A stretch of 64,000 nt of DNA from Candidatus Gastranaerophilales bacterium. GTDB lineage: Bacteria; Cyanobacteriota; Vampirovibrionia; Gastranaerophilales; Gastranaerophilaceae. The stretch covers positions 1-64,000 of the forward strand of contig CALUSQ010000001.1 of assembly GCA_944323475.1 (NCBI GenBank), written 5' to 3'. The notes under the pieces are model-generated. The model was given only the letters and a program-made list of their open reading frames with translations, made no database searches and was not told the DNA's origin. This document shows, in pieces, positions 1,270 through 37,950 of the stretch (positions are counted from its first letter, which is position 1; each line of letters opens with the position of its first letter). The translations under genes were made by a program, and so were the position numbers.

Positions 1270-3254
1270 GCTTTAAAATAGTCAAACCCTGCACAATCAG
1301 GATCTTGAGCATCATATTTCCAATCGTGATCATTGTCTAATCCATCATTACAAGAATTGCCTGAATCTGGGCTTTCTGCTTTTGGTGTGCCTGTCAACCA
1401 CTTATCAGGAATATCATTCCATAATGTTTCAAAAATTTCTCTTGCTTGTGCTGCGTGTTTGTTACTTTCTATAAAAACAATATTCTCATCATTCTTTTCT
1501 GATGCTGTTTTGGTTGCATTCATTGAACCTACGGTTACTAATTTATCATCAATAATAATTGTTTTCATATGCATTTTACCAGTCCAATTCTCAACTTTTA
1601 GAGGAATACCCATTTCTCTTATTTTTGTATGTTTAGAGTATTTTTCATTAGCAGCAGATGCACATGTAATAACTTTTACATCTACGCCCCTTTGTTTTGC
1701 CTTTGAAAGTGCTTCGATAACTCTATCGTGAGTTAGAAAAAACATTGACACATAGACGTACTTTTCAGCAGAATCTATCTTATATACCAACTCATCGATA
1801 ATATCAGGATTAGGACAAAAATATACAGACAGAATAGAACCATCATCCAATTTTACATTTTTGATATGATAAGGGACTTTTGTGTAATGAAATTTCCCTG
1901 TGTACATCTGTTTGGCTTCTTGAATATATGCATAAGTAATTTCAGGAGAAACAATTAAGACATTTAGGTTGCAATTTAATCCGCCTGTACCAGAAGAACT
2001 CAAATTTGTAGATCCTGTCCATACTCTGTTTTTACCAAGAGTAACAAATTTATTGTGCATTATATTGCCATTGTAAGTTCCCCTTTCAGCACTCCTCCCT
2101 GCTGCTGTATCTTTAATAATTCTATCAGCGATAGCTCTATCTACTGCATAATCAGTTTTCCAACTTCCAAAATCTCTCATTGCATAAAATGTATCTTTAT
2201 AAACACTTCTATTATAGATATCAACATCTGCAATACCAAAGATTTTGTTCTTACGCTTTTGTGCTTTTATAAAAGCGTTAACTATTTCAGGTTGTTCTGC
2301 TATACCATAAGTCGCAAGGTAAATATCCTCACCTTTCAATTTATTCAATTCATCAATTAAAACCCTACCTGATATAGTTCTGGTTTTGTCTGAGGGAAAC
2401 ATATTGTATTGAATCGGGCTGTTGAATAGCAACATTACACTTGTTTTTATTTTTTGTTTTTTATTTGCATCAATATTAGGAACTATTTCTATCGAATGCT
2501 TATAAGGAGTTTGGTATATGTCAAAATCTTCTTTAAGTTCCTGGCTAATAGCATTTTTTTCACTATCTTTGCATTCAAAACAGCAACAGGATGGTTTGTA
2601 CTTTTTACTCCAAAAATTAGGTTGCTGAACTAATTCTGCTTTACTTGCCATCCAAGCATATTCACAAGTAGTTTTGTGATACTTGCCTGTTTTTTTATTT
2701 AATACAACCAAATTAAGCTTATGTGATTTTTTTGCATAGGCTTTTATTTTATCTATATTCTCATAAGGCTTTAATTGGTCAGCAATATTTGATTGTTGGT
2801 ATACAGTTGCAAGACCTGCTTTCAAAACCTCTTGCTCATAGTTTTTGCATTTACCGTTTCTGCTGCAGTCATAATAAATCGACATCAGATGTCTGTTATT
2901 TTTATCAAACTTTTCTTTTGCTGTATATTCTGCTTTTACGTATTTATTCAATAATTCTTTTTTTGCGAACTCTTTCCCATAATACCCAAGCCCTAAAGCT
3001 TCATCTTGAGTCAGGTTATAGTTTTTAATTTGATAATCTAAAAAAGCACCTGTTTTAGTTTCAAATGTATCAATGCCATTGATTCTTACTTTTTCGTTTT
3101 GCTCAGGTATTTCGTTGTCGTTAAAGTCAACGTATACAGTGTCGCCATCTATAATTTTGATTACCTTATGAGAAAGTGTTTGTGCAGTGGTTACGTTATG
3201 ACTTATTATGAATATAAATAATAGTAAGATTATTCTTTTTTTCATTCTTTTCAT
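1245..3254 (-). CDS. Exported SNase-phospholipase D fusion nuclease
   Basis: A 669-residue protein with an N-terminal signal peptide (about 1-24). A thermonuclease-like SNase domain spans about 28-165, with IDGDTV at 35-40, Arg58, Glu65 and Arg121 at the expected catalytic positions. Next comes a Cys/His-rich segment (about 183-228, HKTTC and PSCCCFEC) resembling the small metal-binding module that follows some secreted nucleases. Two PLD half-sites follow: H400/K402 with GS414-415 and N417, and H562/K564 with GS576-577 and N579. The tail carries a Cys-bounded Asn/Asp-rich motif (CNDGLDND, 635-642), probably calcium-binding. Two nuclease folds in one chain are unusual. The likely substrate is extracellular or periplasmic nucleic acid. 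ATG at 3245 is an alternative start. Confidence 0.85.
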   Translation of the reverse strand: MKRMKKRIILLLFIFIISHNVTTAQTLSHKVIKIIDGDTVYVDFNDNEIPEQNEKVRINGIDTFETKTGAFLDYQIKNYNLTQDEALGLGYYGKEFAKKELLNKYVKAEYTAKEKFDKNNRHLMSIYYDCSRNGKCKNYEQEVLKAGLATVYQQSNIADQLKPYENIDKIKAYAKKSHKLNLVVLNKKTGKYHKTTCEYAWMASKAELVQQPNFWSKKYKPSCCCFECKDSEKNAISQELKEDFDIYQTPYKHSIEIVPNIDANKKQKIKTSVMLLFNSPIQYNMFPSDKTRTISGRVLIDELNKLKGEDIYLATYGIAEQPEIVNAFIKAQKRKNKIFGIADVDIYNRSVYKDTFYAMRDFGSWKTDYAVDRAIADRIIKDTAAGRSAERGTYNGNIMHNKFVTLGKNRVWTGSTNLSSSGTGGLNCNLNVLIVSPEITYAYIQEAKQMYTGKFHYTKVPYHIKNVKLDDGSILSVYFCPNPDIIDELVYKIDSAEKYVYVSMFFLTHDRVIEALSKAKQRGVDVKVITCASAANEKYSKHTKIREMGIPLKVENWTGKMHMKTIIIDDKLVTVGSMNATKTASEKNDENIVFIESNKHAAQAREIFETLWNDIPDKWLTGTPKAESPDSGNSCNDGLDNDHDWKYDAQDPDCAGFDYFKAYRLRWSE

Positions 3255-9963: not shown

Positions 9964-10123
9964 TTTTCATTCCTTCCTGAAAAACATTATATGTGAATAA
10001 AAAATTTTATTCATCAATTTTTATAAATATCTATCGATAACTTTACAAAAAATTAAACACACGGGTGTTGAAAAATATTAAAAACACATAAAAAATTATT
10101 ATAAGTAAAAAACAAGGAGTAAT

Positions 10124-10429
10124 ATGTTTAAAAAAATTATTAATCCTATTGAGGAACTAAATTACAGACAAGATGGAATTGATAATAAATATCTAATAAA
10201 TGATGGACATAGAGCAATAGGATTATTCGCTGCAATAGCAGGAATGATTGTACCTTCACAAATATCTCCACAAGATGTATTATTTTATGTATTAGAAGGT
10301 AAAATAGAAATATCTATGGAAGACAAAGTATTTGAACTTAAAAAAGAAGAATTAATTTTAATTCCAAAAACCAGCGCATTTTCAATAAATTTTATTGAAA
10401 ATTCAAAAATATTTACTACTAGATTATAA
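10124..10429 (+). CDS. Small cupin-fold protein
   Basis: A 101-residue protein that reads as a single cupin barrel: VPSQISPQDVLFYVLEGKIEISMEDKVFELKKEELILIPKTSAFSI has the strand order and the Gly of cupin motif 1 and the Pro of motif 2. The usual metal-binding histidines are absent, so it may bind a ligand without metal. AAGGAG precedes the ATG. A better-preserved cupin is encoded at 23028-23336. Confidence 0.65.
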   Translation: MFKKIINPIEELNYRQDGIDNKYLINDGHRAIGLFAAIAGMIVPSQISPQDVLFYVLEGKIEISMEDKVFELKKEELILIPKTSAFSINFIENSKIFTTRL

Positions 10430-10515
10430 TCTAGCAAAAAATCATAAATTTAGCCCAATACTCCATTAAATGAGGAGCAAATGGAAGATGTTTCTTGTGT
10501 CTTTTAAATATTTTT

Positions 10516-11283
10516 TTAAGCAATACATTCAGTCTCATGATTTAAGCCTCTCTCTTTTAATTGAACAAATTGAGCGAATAAATCTGTATAAACCAGATAA
10601 ACATAGAAAGATATAAAAGGTATTAATAATGCAAAAATTTGAGCATTAATTAATATACCTGTTAAAATCAAATGTATTATCGCCAAAAATAAACAATTCA
10701 CAACAAGAAGTACAAAATTTGAAATATTATCTTTCAAATGAAAACATGCTCTTTTAAAATCAAAGAATGAACTCATTTTCAAATCTACAACAAAATTAAG
10801 TGCTACCATTATATATAAAAACGTATAAATAATATGCATAATAACAAGAACAATTAGAAATGGTATTATTTCTTTACTTAAAGTCATAGGAGTAAAAAGC
10901 AACAATAATAAACCAAAACACAAAAATGGCAAAGAAAGCACAATACCACCAATATATGCATTTAATCCAACCTTGAGGTATTTGTCAAAATGCAGCCAAT
11001 CCGGTAATCCTTCTTTATCATGAATAACTCTGTTATGAATCGTTTTAAAAAAGTAACCTGTTACGGCAACAGAAACAACTATTGTAAACATTACAAATAA
11101 AGCCAATAAAAAATAATTTACAGGATCAAAAATCATTCTTCTAATACCTGGGAAAACATAAGCAAATGTTGGACAAAACAAAAGGAGCCCGCCTATTAAT
11201 AATGTTCTAATCCATTTGTCATTTTTTGGCACAAAAAACATTGCCTGCTTCAGACTAATACCCATTAGCATGCTCCTAAACAA
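10516..11283 (-). CDS. DUF4013-like polytopic membrane protein
   Basis: A 255-residue protein with about six membrane helices. It begins with a segment where WIRTLLIGGLLLFCPTF leads into the first helix, and later has LPDWLHFDKYLKVGLNAYIGG. This matches the pattern of DUF4013 proteins (W-K-IL-GG-L, then LP-W-D--FV-G---), whose function is unknown. A homologous but shorter protein is encoded just upstream at 11387-12025, so the pair probably arose by duplication. A long inverted repeat lies between them. Confidence 0.7.
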   Translation of the reverse strand: MFRSMLMGISLKQAMFFVPKNDKWIRTLLIGGLLLFCPTFAYVFPGIRRMIFDPVNYFLLALFVMFTIVVSVAVTGYFFKTIHNRVIHDKEGLPDWLHFDKYLKVGLNAYIGGIVLSLPFLCFGLLLLLFTPMTLSKEIIPFLIVLVIMHIIYTFLYIMVALNFVVDLKMSSFFDFKRACFHLKDNISNFVLLVVNCLFLAIIHLILTGILINAQIFALLIPFISFYVYLVYTDLFAQFVQLKERGLNHETECIA

Positions 11284-36127: not shown

Positions 36128-36541
36128 TTAAGCTACAAAGTCTTTTTCTGCTTGACGAATAAAATTCTTAAATTGTTCTATAGTGTTTGGGTTTTTAAGA
36201 GTTGACTCAATAGCAAATTTTGTACCATTTGCCAAAACTACAGATATTCCGCCACCCAGTTCTTCTGACTCTGCAATCATAGACAAAACTCTTGAACGAT
36301 AATCATCTTTAATGCGAGGACTTTCTATCTTCAACTTTGCTTCAGAAATTTTTGAATCTTTTAACGGATTAAGTATTTTTACAATAATAGGTTCATCTAT
36401 ACGTCCAATTTCATTAGTTTTTTCAAACATATTCAAAATCTTTTTCACAGCTTCTGCAAATTTATCTTTAACTAATTTTGAAGATTGAACTTTTCCAGAA
36501 ATCCTGCTCGCAGACATTAATGGGTTAAAAACAGTTCTCAT
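36128..36541 (-). CDS. Small protein paired with the RelA/SpoT-like gene, unknown
   Basis: A 137-residue soluble protein of mixed alpha/beta pattern. Basic residues dominate the first 45; the segment DDYRSRVLSMIAESEELGGGISVVLANGTKFAIEST (about 77-112) reads like a helix followed by two strands. No family is recognised. It begins two bases after the stop of the RelA/SpoT-like gene, with GGAG upstream of the ATG, so the two are one operon. It could be an antidote, regulator or partner of that protein, but there is no direct evidence. Confidence 0.65.
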   Translation of the reverse strand: MRTVFNPLMSASRISGKVQSSKLVKDKFAEAVKKILNMFEKTNEIGRIDEPIIVKILNPLKDSKISEAKLKIESPRIKDDYRSRVLSMIAESEELGGGISVVLANGTKFAIESTLKNPNTIEQFKNFIRQAEKDFVA

Positions 36542-36543
36542 AC

Positions 36544-37950
36544 TTATTTCTCCAATTTATTCCTTTCATAGTAACGTTTTTTAATTTCATTAGCTTTTTC
36601 ATCAATTCTTCTTAAAGAATCAAAACTTAATAGTCTCCAGTATTCTTCAAGCCCATATTCATGTAATCTCGGTTTGGGGTATTTTCTGCTATTATCTGTT
36701 TGGGTTTCTTTGTTTCTTACCCAATAATACATAGCTCTTTCGTAATTAAAATAATTCTGCTCTTTTTTCTTATCATTAAAAAGCTCTTTAACTGCTTTTT
36801 CTATACCTATTTTATCATAATATTCTTTTAATTCAGGTATACCTTTTGAAATATCTTTTTTCTGCAAAATATCGTAAATTAAATGTTCTACATCGCCAAT
36901 GTAATTTAACTCTTGAGTTCTAATTTGAAACTCCCCAAGCAAATCTTTTATTCCATTTTTTGTACTTATTTTATGAACAATATTGATTTGTGTAGTTGTA
37001 TAACCATTTTTCTTTCTTACTTCAGCAGTTTCAACAACTTTCAAACCGGGTATAATTTGTTTCCAAAGTTTTGCAGTATCGTGTTTAATATATGGCAGTA
37101 TATGGTTAGCATGGTAATTACTTACACGAGTCGGTAACAATTCTCCTTTTTTTATAGCTTTATCCAAATATTTTTCAACAAGTTCCAGCTCTTTTTTATC
37201 CCCTTTAGGCAAAATTAATCTTGTACCTACCAGATCCTTAATCCAATTTATTGACTCTATATGATCTCGACTGGTATGTTTAAATACTTGCACCATTTTT
37301 TGATAATCTTTAGAATCAAGTTTAATCTCACCATCTTTAATATAAAGTTTTAAAAGCTCTTTATCATCCTTGTCCAAATCATCCATTGAACAGCCAAAAA
37401 CTTTATTAGAAATAACAGACATTAAATCCGTATTAATCTTATTATCATTAAACTCTTTGATTAACTTGTCATATATTGATCTTCTGCCTTTTACACGGTA
37501 TGTAATATATTTCCCCAGTCCTTTTTCTCCGCCAAAAACATCTACCATTTGATCTGCACAAGTTTTTCCGTATTTTTTAGCATCTGTCTCAAGAGAAATA
37601 GCCAAATTTTTAAAATGAACAGCTTTTTTCATTGCAGCATCTATAACATTAGCTTGGCTGGGTGTAAAAATTTCTCTACCTTTTGCATCAATCTTAGGCT
37701 TTAAAAAATACAAAATATGCTCTGGTAAGATATTAGTCTTTTTTAATAAATTAAAAGTATTTGAAACAAACTGCATTTCTTGTTGGCTTAATTTACTTTT
37801 TTTTGTATTTATATAATTGCATTTTATAGCCAAAGAATCTTTAGATGGAGTACGTTCCAATTTATTGTCAGACTGTTGAGATAAACCAAAAGAAGGTATT
37901 GTCTGTTTAGGAAAAGAAATATAATTTTTTAAATTAATAGCGCTAATCAT
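36544..37950 (-). CDS. RelA/SpoT-domain protein (alarmone-synthetase-like)
   Basis: A 468-residue protein with a recognisable RelA/SpoT nucleotidyltransferase core. YRVKGRRSIYDKL (151-163) matches the R-K-SI--K motif, WIKDLVGTRLILP (236-248) has the metal-binding Asp239, NGYTTTQINIV (315-325) is the G-loop region, and GEFQIRT with VEHLIYD (339-360) supplies the catalytic Glu340 and EH. The domain is interrupted by a larger-than-usual insert between motifs, and there is no hydrolase, TGS or ACT domain. The N-terminal ~90 and C-terminal ~100 residues are unassigned. It may make (p)ppGpp or pyrophosphorylate another target. Confidence 0.75.
   Translation of the reverse strand: MISAINLKNYISFPKQTIPSFGLSQQSDNKLERTPSKDSLAIKCNYINTKKSKLSQQEMQFVSNTFNLLKKTNILPEHILYFLKPKIDAKGREIFTPSQANVIDAAMKKAVHFKNLAISLETDAKKYGKTCADQMVDVFGGEKGLGKYITYRVKGRRSIYDKLIKEFNDNKINTDLMSVISNKVFGCSMDDLDKDDKELLKLYIKDGEIKLDSKDYQKMVQVFKHTSRDHIESINWIKDLVGTRLILPKGDKKELELVEKYLDKAIKKGELLPTRVSNYHANHILPYIKHDTAKLWKQIIPGLKVVETAEVRKKNGYTTTQINIVHKISTKNGIKDLLGEFQIRTQELNYIGDVEHLIYDILQKKDISKGIPELKEYYDKIGIEKAVKELFNDKKKEQNYFNYERAMYYWVRNKETQTDNSRKYPKPRLHEYGLEEYWRLLSFDSLRRIDEKANEIKKRYYERNKLEK

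Follow-up and report, generated by a model that had tools for sequence, protein, structure and literature searches.

The window analysed here, a 64,000-nt stretch of a Candidatus Gastranaerophilales genome, holds two adjacent minus-strand genes that suggest a previously undescribed poison-and-guard pair: in this lineage of gut bacteria, RelA-like domains, known from enzymes that synthesise the stress signal ppGpp, nearly always come with one small partner family, also where they lie within giant proteins. The upstream gene (36544..37950) encodes REL, a 468-aa RelA/SpoT-fold protein and presumed pyrophosphokinase, recognised from its ORF, Pfam/NCBIfam scans, an AF2 model, fold matches and conservation. 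The downstream gene (36128..36541) encodes a 137-aa protein, here called the partner, recognised from its ORF, a family alignment, AF2 and linkage. On balance we lean towards reading the pair as a lineage-specific toxSAS-like module, in which a RelA/SpoT-fold pyrophosphokinase is neutralised by its partner. We infer that REL is catalytically active and harms the cell producing it, and that binding by the partner neutralises it. REL would move pyrophosphate from ATP to an acceptor 3'-OH, that of a nucleotide or of a tRNA CCA end, the co-translated partner would bind the RelA domain and keep it inactive, and a trigger would free REL from this hold. For the giant relatives of REL the hold would last until arrival in another cell. 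Precedents for neutralised toxSAS are known (PMC11782079, PMC12226406, PMC12691689). The initial annotation had pointed to toxSAS pairs and suspected a new variety of system; our analysis favours a toxSAS-like pair, and the new partner family, the altered acceptor motif and protein sizes from 320 to 4094 aa back the new variety as well.

Gene pair, fold and active site of REL

The layout of the two genes is operon-like. As had been described from the sequence, the 137-aa ORF follows REL after a 2-nt gap (36542-36543). A Shine-Dalgarno-like GGAG (36550..36553, minus strand) lies within the last codons of REL, 8 nt before the partner ATG, so the two proteins are likely co-translated. The mnmA gene (plus strand) converges on the pair from one side and lptC (plus strand) diverges on the other. 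PADLOC gave no match for the pair. Chance is ruled out as its source because the pair is kept across many genomes.

Sequence profiles matched REL weakly. Pfam RelA_SpoT gave a borderline 23.2 bits (cut-off 27, E 8.7e-5) and NCBIfam YjbM gave E 1.4e-6, far under its cut-off. RelA_SpoT was the sole domain matched, and the same Pfam/NCBIfam scan found no HD, TGS or ACT domain, in agreement with the earlier statement that hydrolase and regulatory domains are lacking; REL thus does not have the HD hydrolase and TGS/ACT architecture of long RSH proteins. Despite the weak sequence match, the AF2 model (pLDDT 86.3, pTM 0.80) predicts a clear RelA/SpoT synthetase fold, with VIA Z of about 11, which bears out the fold expected in the initial annotation. 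The model matched CapRel at Z 11.2 (rmsd 5.0, 232 aligned), SAS1 and SAS2 at 11.1 and RelP at 10.9 (rmsd 3.2-3.5, ~180 aligned for these three), exported SaEAS at 10.9 and Tas1 at 7.8; matches within 1 Z count as tied, which gives CapRel no special standing. The long ends and insert noted earlier were also found, as a disordered stretch at residues 1-39, a helical N-terminal region and helices at ~163-236 inserted between the first two motifs.

Every synthetase landmark named in the initial annotation is present, with Glu340 correctly numbered. All the motifs lie on the minus strand. Syn1, the ATP site R152-x-K154-x3-S158-x3-K162 (37465..37497), has spacing equal to that of R64-K66-S70-K74 in FaRel2 (PMC11782079); R152 seems to be missing from some members of the genus, which we read as an artefact of aligning a short insertion (ARNKNG..SSKDSISIYNK). 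In Syn2, D239-x2-G242-x-R244 (37219..37236), the presumed metal-binding D239 is kept in 106/110 partnered RelA domains and R244 in 107/110. A lineage signature, N278-Y279...P286-Y287 (37090..37119), follows, with N278 in 110/110 and Y279 in 109/110. Syn3 is the acceptor loop G316-Y317-T-T-T-Q321-I-N323 (36982..37005), Syn4 is E340-x-Q342-x-R344 (36919..36933) and E355-H356 lies at 36883..36888; none of Y317, Q321, E340, Q342, R344, E355 and H356 varies among the 110 partnered domains. REL therefore combines the synthetase fold with the conserved ATP-site and catalytic residues (RxK..S..K, D, G-loop Tyr, ExQxR) of the RelA/SpoT (RSH) SYNTH superfamily, and this combination of fold and conserved active site favours the toxSAS-like reading.

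The acceptor loop of partnered domains is mostly Y-T-[TA]-x-Q, GYTTTQ in the window. The guanosine-recognising YxSxH loop of (p)ppGpp synthetases is not found in these domains, the H position being Q in 110/110, and the window has TTQ in place of the GxN acceptor motif of the Apk2-type (p)ppApp synthetase (PMC12226406). The loop thus departs from both, and REL may either make an alarmone or modify tRNA.

Linkage of the partner to the RelA domain

The partner was matched in 20/23 genomes of the genus and in 84/155 genomes of the family, mostly as a single copy. Across the family it lies downstream of 110 of the 121 distinct RelA-like ORFs (320 to 4094 aa), a set that is partly selected, since ORFs downstream of RelA served to build profile A1 and the partner was the criterion for picking loci L092-L131; 4 of the 11 partnerless ORFs stop at or near a contig edge. 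Two less circular counts gave the same picture. The partner was present at 33/36 RelA-signature loci unused for A1, the other 3 ending at contig edges, and a RelA-like domain was directly upstream in 38 of 40 loci picked by partner alone. The genes thus do not separate freely, so that this objection named in the initial annotation falls away, and like toxSAS they form a bicistronic unit with a cognate small protein that is kept as a pair.

The linkage is strong but not absolute. At L129 the partner sits near a contig start and is preceded by short ORFs only, with no significant RelA match. L096 carries an orphan partner (1152-1547), around which all six frames of 11.5 kb showed no remnant of RelA. 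Beside it lies a gene that comes after the partner in L057 and L061 too. This orphan would resemble retained immunity genes, which favours the toxSAS-like reading. Against that reading stand four RelA proteins with the Y-x-x-x-Q loop for which no partner was detected (L029, L206, L207, L224), three of which keep R344. An idea drawn from seven solo proteins, that all solo forms have an altered active site, was weakened by these cases (both Q321 and R344 are retained in L206, L207 and L224) and by a GYTRxN clade that has its own partner.

The position of the RelA domain varies between N-terminal (residues 140-440 of 2844 in L110), central and C-terminal, and the partner still follows. Downstream of 12 large proteins (746 to 3022 aa; L226-L237) that share N-terminal modules with the RelA giants and lack RelA, no partner-like gene was found; a 104-aa ORF after L234 matched the partner profile at E = 1 only. 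The partner therefore tracks the RelA domain and not protein size or the N-terminus. This strong and specific linkage favours the toxSAS-like reading. L110 also has tandem partner genes (10005-10382 and 10458-10829) ~1.45 kb past its 2844-aa RelA-carrying ORF.

The partner family was not recognised by Pfam or NCBIfam, and no partner-RelA fusion was seen. The AF2 model of the partner (pLDDT 83.9) is alpha-4beta-2alpha with residues 1-23 disordered. Its structural matches are weak, the best being Pur-alpha (VIA Z 6.2) followed by an integrase arm-binding domain and Whirly proteins, and imply no function. Known toxSAS neutraliser folds, Tis1-like included, were absent among the matches listed, which excludes nothing. 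The YxxY neutralising motif of tRNA-targeting toxSAS with a pseudo-zinc-finger antitoxin is not a feature of the family, as any YxxY occurs in 10/110 partners. A motif of the 'I-[SN]-F-[KGSQ]-[GA]' type was seen in N-terminal tails, both in partners and in several proteins unrelated to them, such as L090:2043-2384 and L083:810-4604. As a shared 'ISFxx' sorting motif it was too weak, occurring in 9/109 partners against 1.4 expected from shuffles and in 12/425 proteins of an own-genome sample.

Relatives of the pair and alternative readings

Sequences of the window type form a clade of 26 (461 to 618 aa, support 0.998), all partnered, in the locus order XerC-PfkB-LptA-LptC-REL-partner-MnmA. LptA-LptC flank REL in 24/24 named loci of the genus and sister genus, and the outer genes are present in most (mnmA where contigs reach). 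REL and partner diverge far faster than their neighbour genes, with identities of 29-64% and 33-65% respectively against 63-93% for the flanking proteins. Pairwise dN/dS values of ~0.07 (REL) and ~0.055 (partner) mark both as functional proteins kept by purifying selection, which we count in favour of the toxSAS-like reading. RelA proteins of a second clade (GYTRxN, ExQxG, 305-365 aa) are followed by a 119-138-aa partner of their own, whose profile is marginally similar to that of the first partner (hhalign probability 33%, E 4.5e-4). A third clade (GYxAxH, ExQx[MVLI], ED replacing EH) has no partner. The window's own genome encodes a second RelA-fold protein, L225 (G000:C31; 337 aa with a GYTRTN loop; 1938-2951, minus strand). 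A separate 121-aa partner is encoded downstream of it (1492-1857, minus strand), and a TlyA-like gene adjoins the two.

Genomes with the family are almost all Candidatus Gastranaerophilales or gut and rumen MAGs; a few are labelled Acinetobacter or Brachyspira and are perhaps mis-binned. In the class sample the partner profile matched in the same family only. A mobile phage or plasmid toxin-antitoxin system was rejected, since phage, plasmid and viral collections gave no match to the pair at the sensitivity used. Literature searches found no paper naming both Gastranaerophilales and RelA SpoT, or both Melainabacteria and alarmone synthetase.

Within the genus the pair is passed on vertically at a single locus and is under strong purifying selection. 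Toxin-antitoxin modules do not usually behave in this way, which counts against the toxSAS-like reading. A physiological small alarmone synthetase acting in normal growth control, with the partner as a regulator (activator or sensor) and not an antitoxin, would account for this core-gene behaviour, the main point in its favour, and the locus kept across genus and sister genus, the low dN/dS and the lack of matches in the phage, plasmid and viral collections all fit. We nevertheless consider it unlikely, as the SxH guanosine-recognition loop is replaced throughout the partnered domains, relatives are built into giants with toxin-like domains, and a canonical long Rel with YRSLH is already encoded elsewhere in the window's genome, a point that also favours the toxSAS-like reading.

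Other members of the RelA family sit inside these giant multidomain proteins. In L191 (2-8878; 2959 aa) an ADP-ribosyltransferase exoenzyme domain (786-922) lies just before the RelA domain (998-1294), and L122 has a calpain-like C2 protease; these toxin-like domains favour the toxSAS-like reading. LysM was found in L182 and HD domains in the giants L055, L097 and L186. Two N-terminal modules of ~55 aa occur on many RelA giants, also head other large proteins and may act as sorting signals. Pfam/NCBIfam scans of the window protein and 21 giants found no known export signal or secretion-recognition domain. The resemblance of the large relatives to multidomain effectors with common N-terminal modules, and the fact that small downstream genes often encode chaperones, could point to the partner as a chaperone that helps RelA-carrying effectors to fold or to be exported, and not a neutraliser. 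This appears quite improbable, given that the partner also accompanies short 320 to 618-aa forms and is retained as an orphan in L096; a general chaperone of giants is likewise not favoured, since the twelve RelA-less giants with the same N-terminal modules have no partner. It is reasonable to suppose instead that the RelA domain is the payload that would harm its producer, and that this is why only this domain keeps a partner. Lastly, the altered acceptor loop, long insert and weak Pfam score could suit a RelA-fold protein that has lost catalysis and is retained for binding, but this is very hard to reconcile with invariant E340, Q342, R344, E355, H356 and Y317 and near-invariant D239 and R244.

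If the toxSAS-like reading is true, RelA-fold toxins would also occur in a gut lineage that is uncultured and sister to Cyanobacteria, and a partner family that Pfam and NCBIfam miss would be added. The partnered, orphan, solo and giant forms would be natural sets suited to testing the basis of acceptor specificity and neutralisation. The findings also indicate that Gastranaerophilales have a repertoire of giant effector-like proteins that has so far gone undescribed. More tentatively, the family may be a new, lineage-specific pyrophosphokinase toxin class with a new acceptor specificity (YT[TA]xQ) and a new neutraliser family, occurring as short chromosomal modules and as a payload in giant Gastranaerophilales effectors sorted by their N-terminal modules.

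Comparison with known synthetase systems

Like the toxSAS FaRel2-ATfaRel2, FaRel, PhRel and CapRel, the pair joins a RelA/SpoT synthetase domain free of hydrolase or TGS/ACT domains to a small protein; in CapRel the two are fused. Among VIA matches of REL, CapRel ranks first (with SAS tied within 1 Z), and REL and FaRel2 share their ATP-site spacing. The likeness would be to toxSAS in general. Unlike in toxSAS, the REL partner has no detectable sequence relationship to the known small proteins, YxxY, which ATfaRel2 and CapRel carry, is rare among partners, REL has a long insert and a YTxxQ acceptor loop, and the family was confined to Gastranaerophilales-type genomes in the searches made.

The giants resemble the exported or polymorphic-toxin synthetases Tas1/Apk1, Apk2, SaEAS and AaEAS in carrying a RelA domain within larger effector-like proteins, and in many such synthetases a small immunity gene lies next to the synthetase gene (PMC12691689, PMC12226406). 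They differ from these in that the Pfam/NCBIfam scans detected no known secretion-recognition domain, the RelA domain often lies away from the C-terminus and the partner belongs to one conserved family; the [TA]xQ loop further differs from the GxN of Apk2. With RelQ/YjbM and RelP/YwaC, REL shares the fold (Z 10.5 to 11.1) and the syn1, syn2 and syn4 motifs, and it differs from them in being ~2x the size, in its replaced SxH and in its dedicated partner gene.
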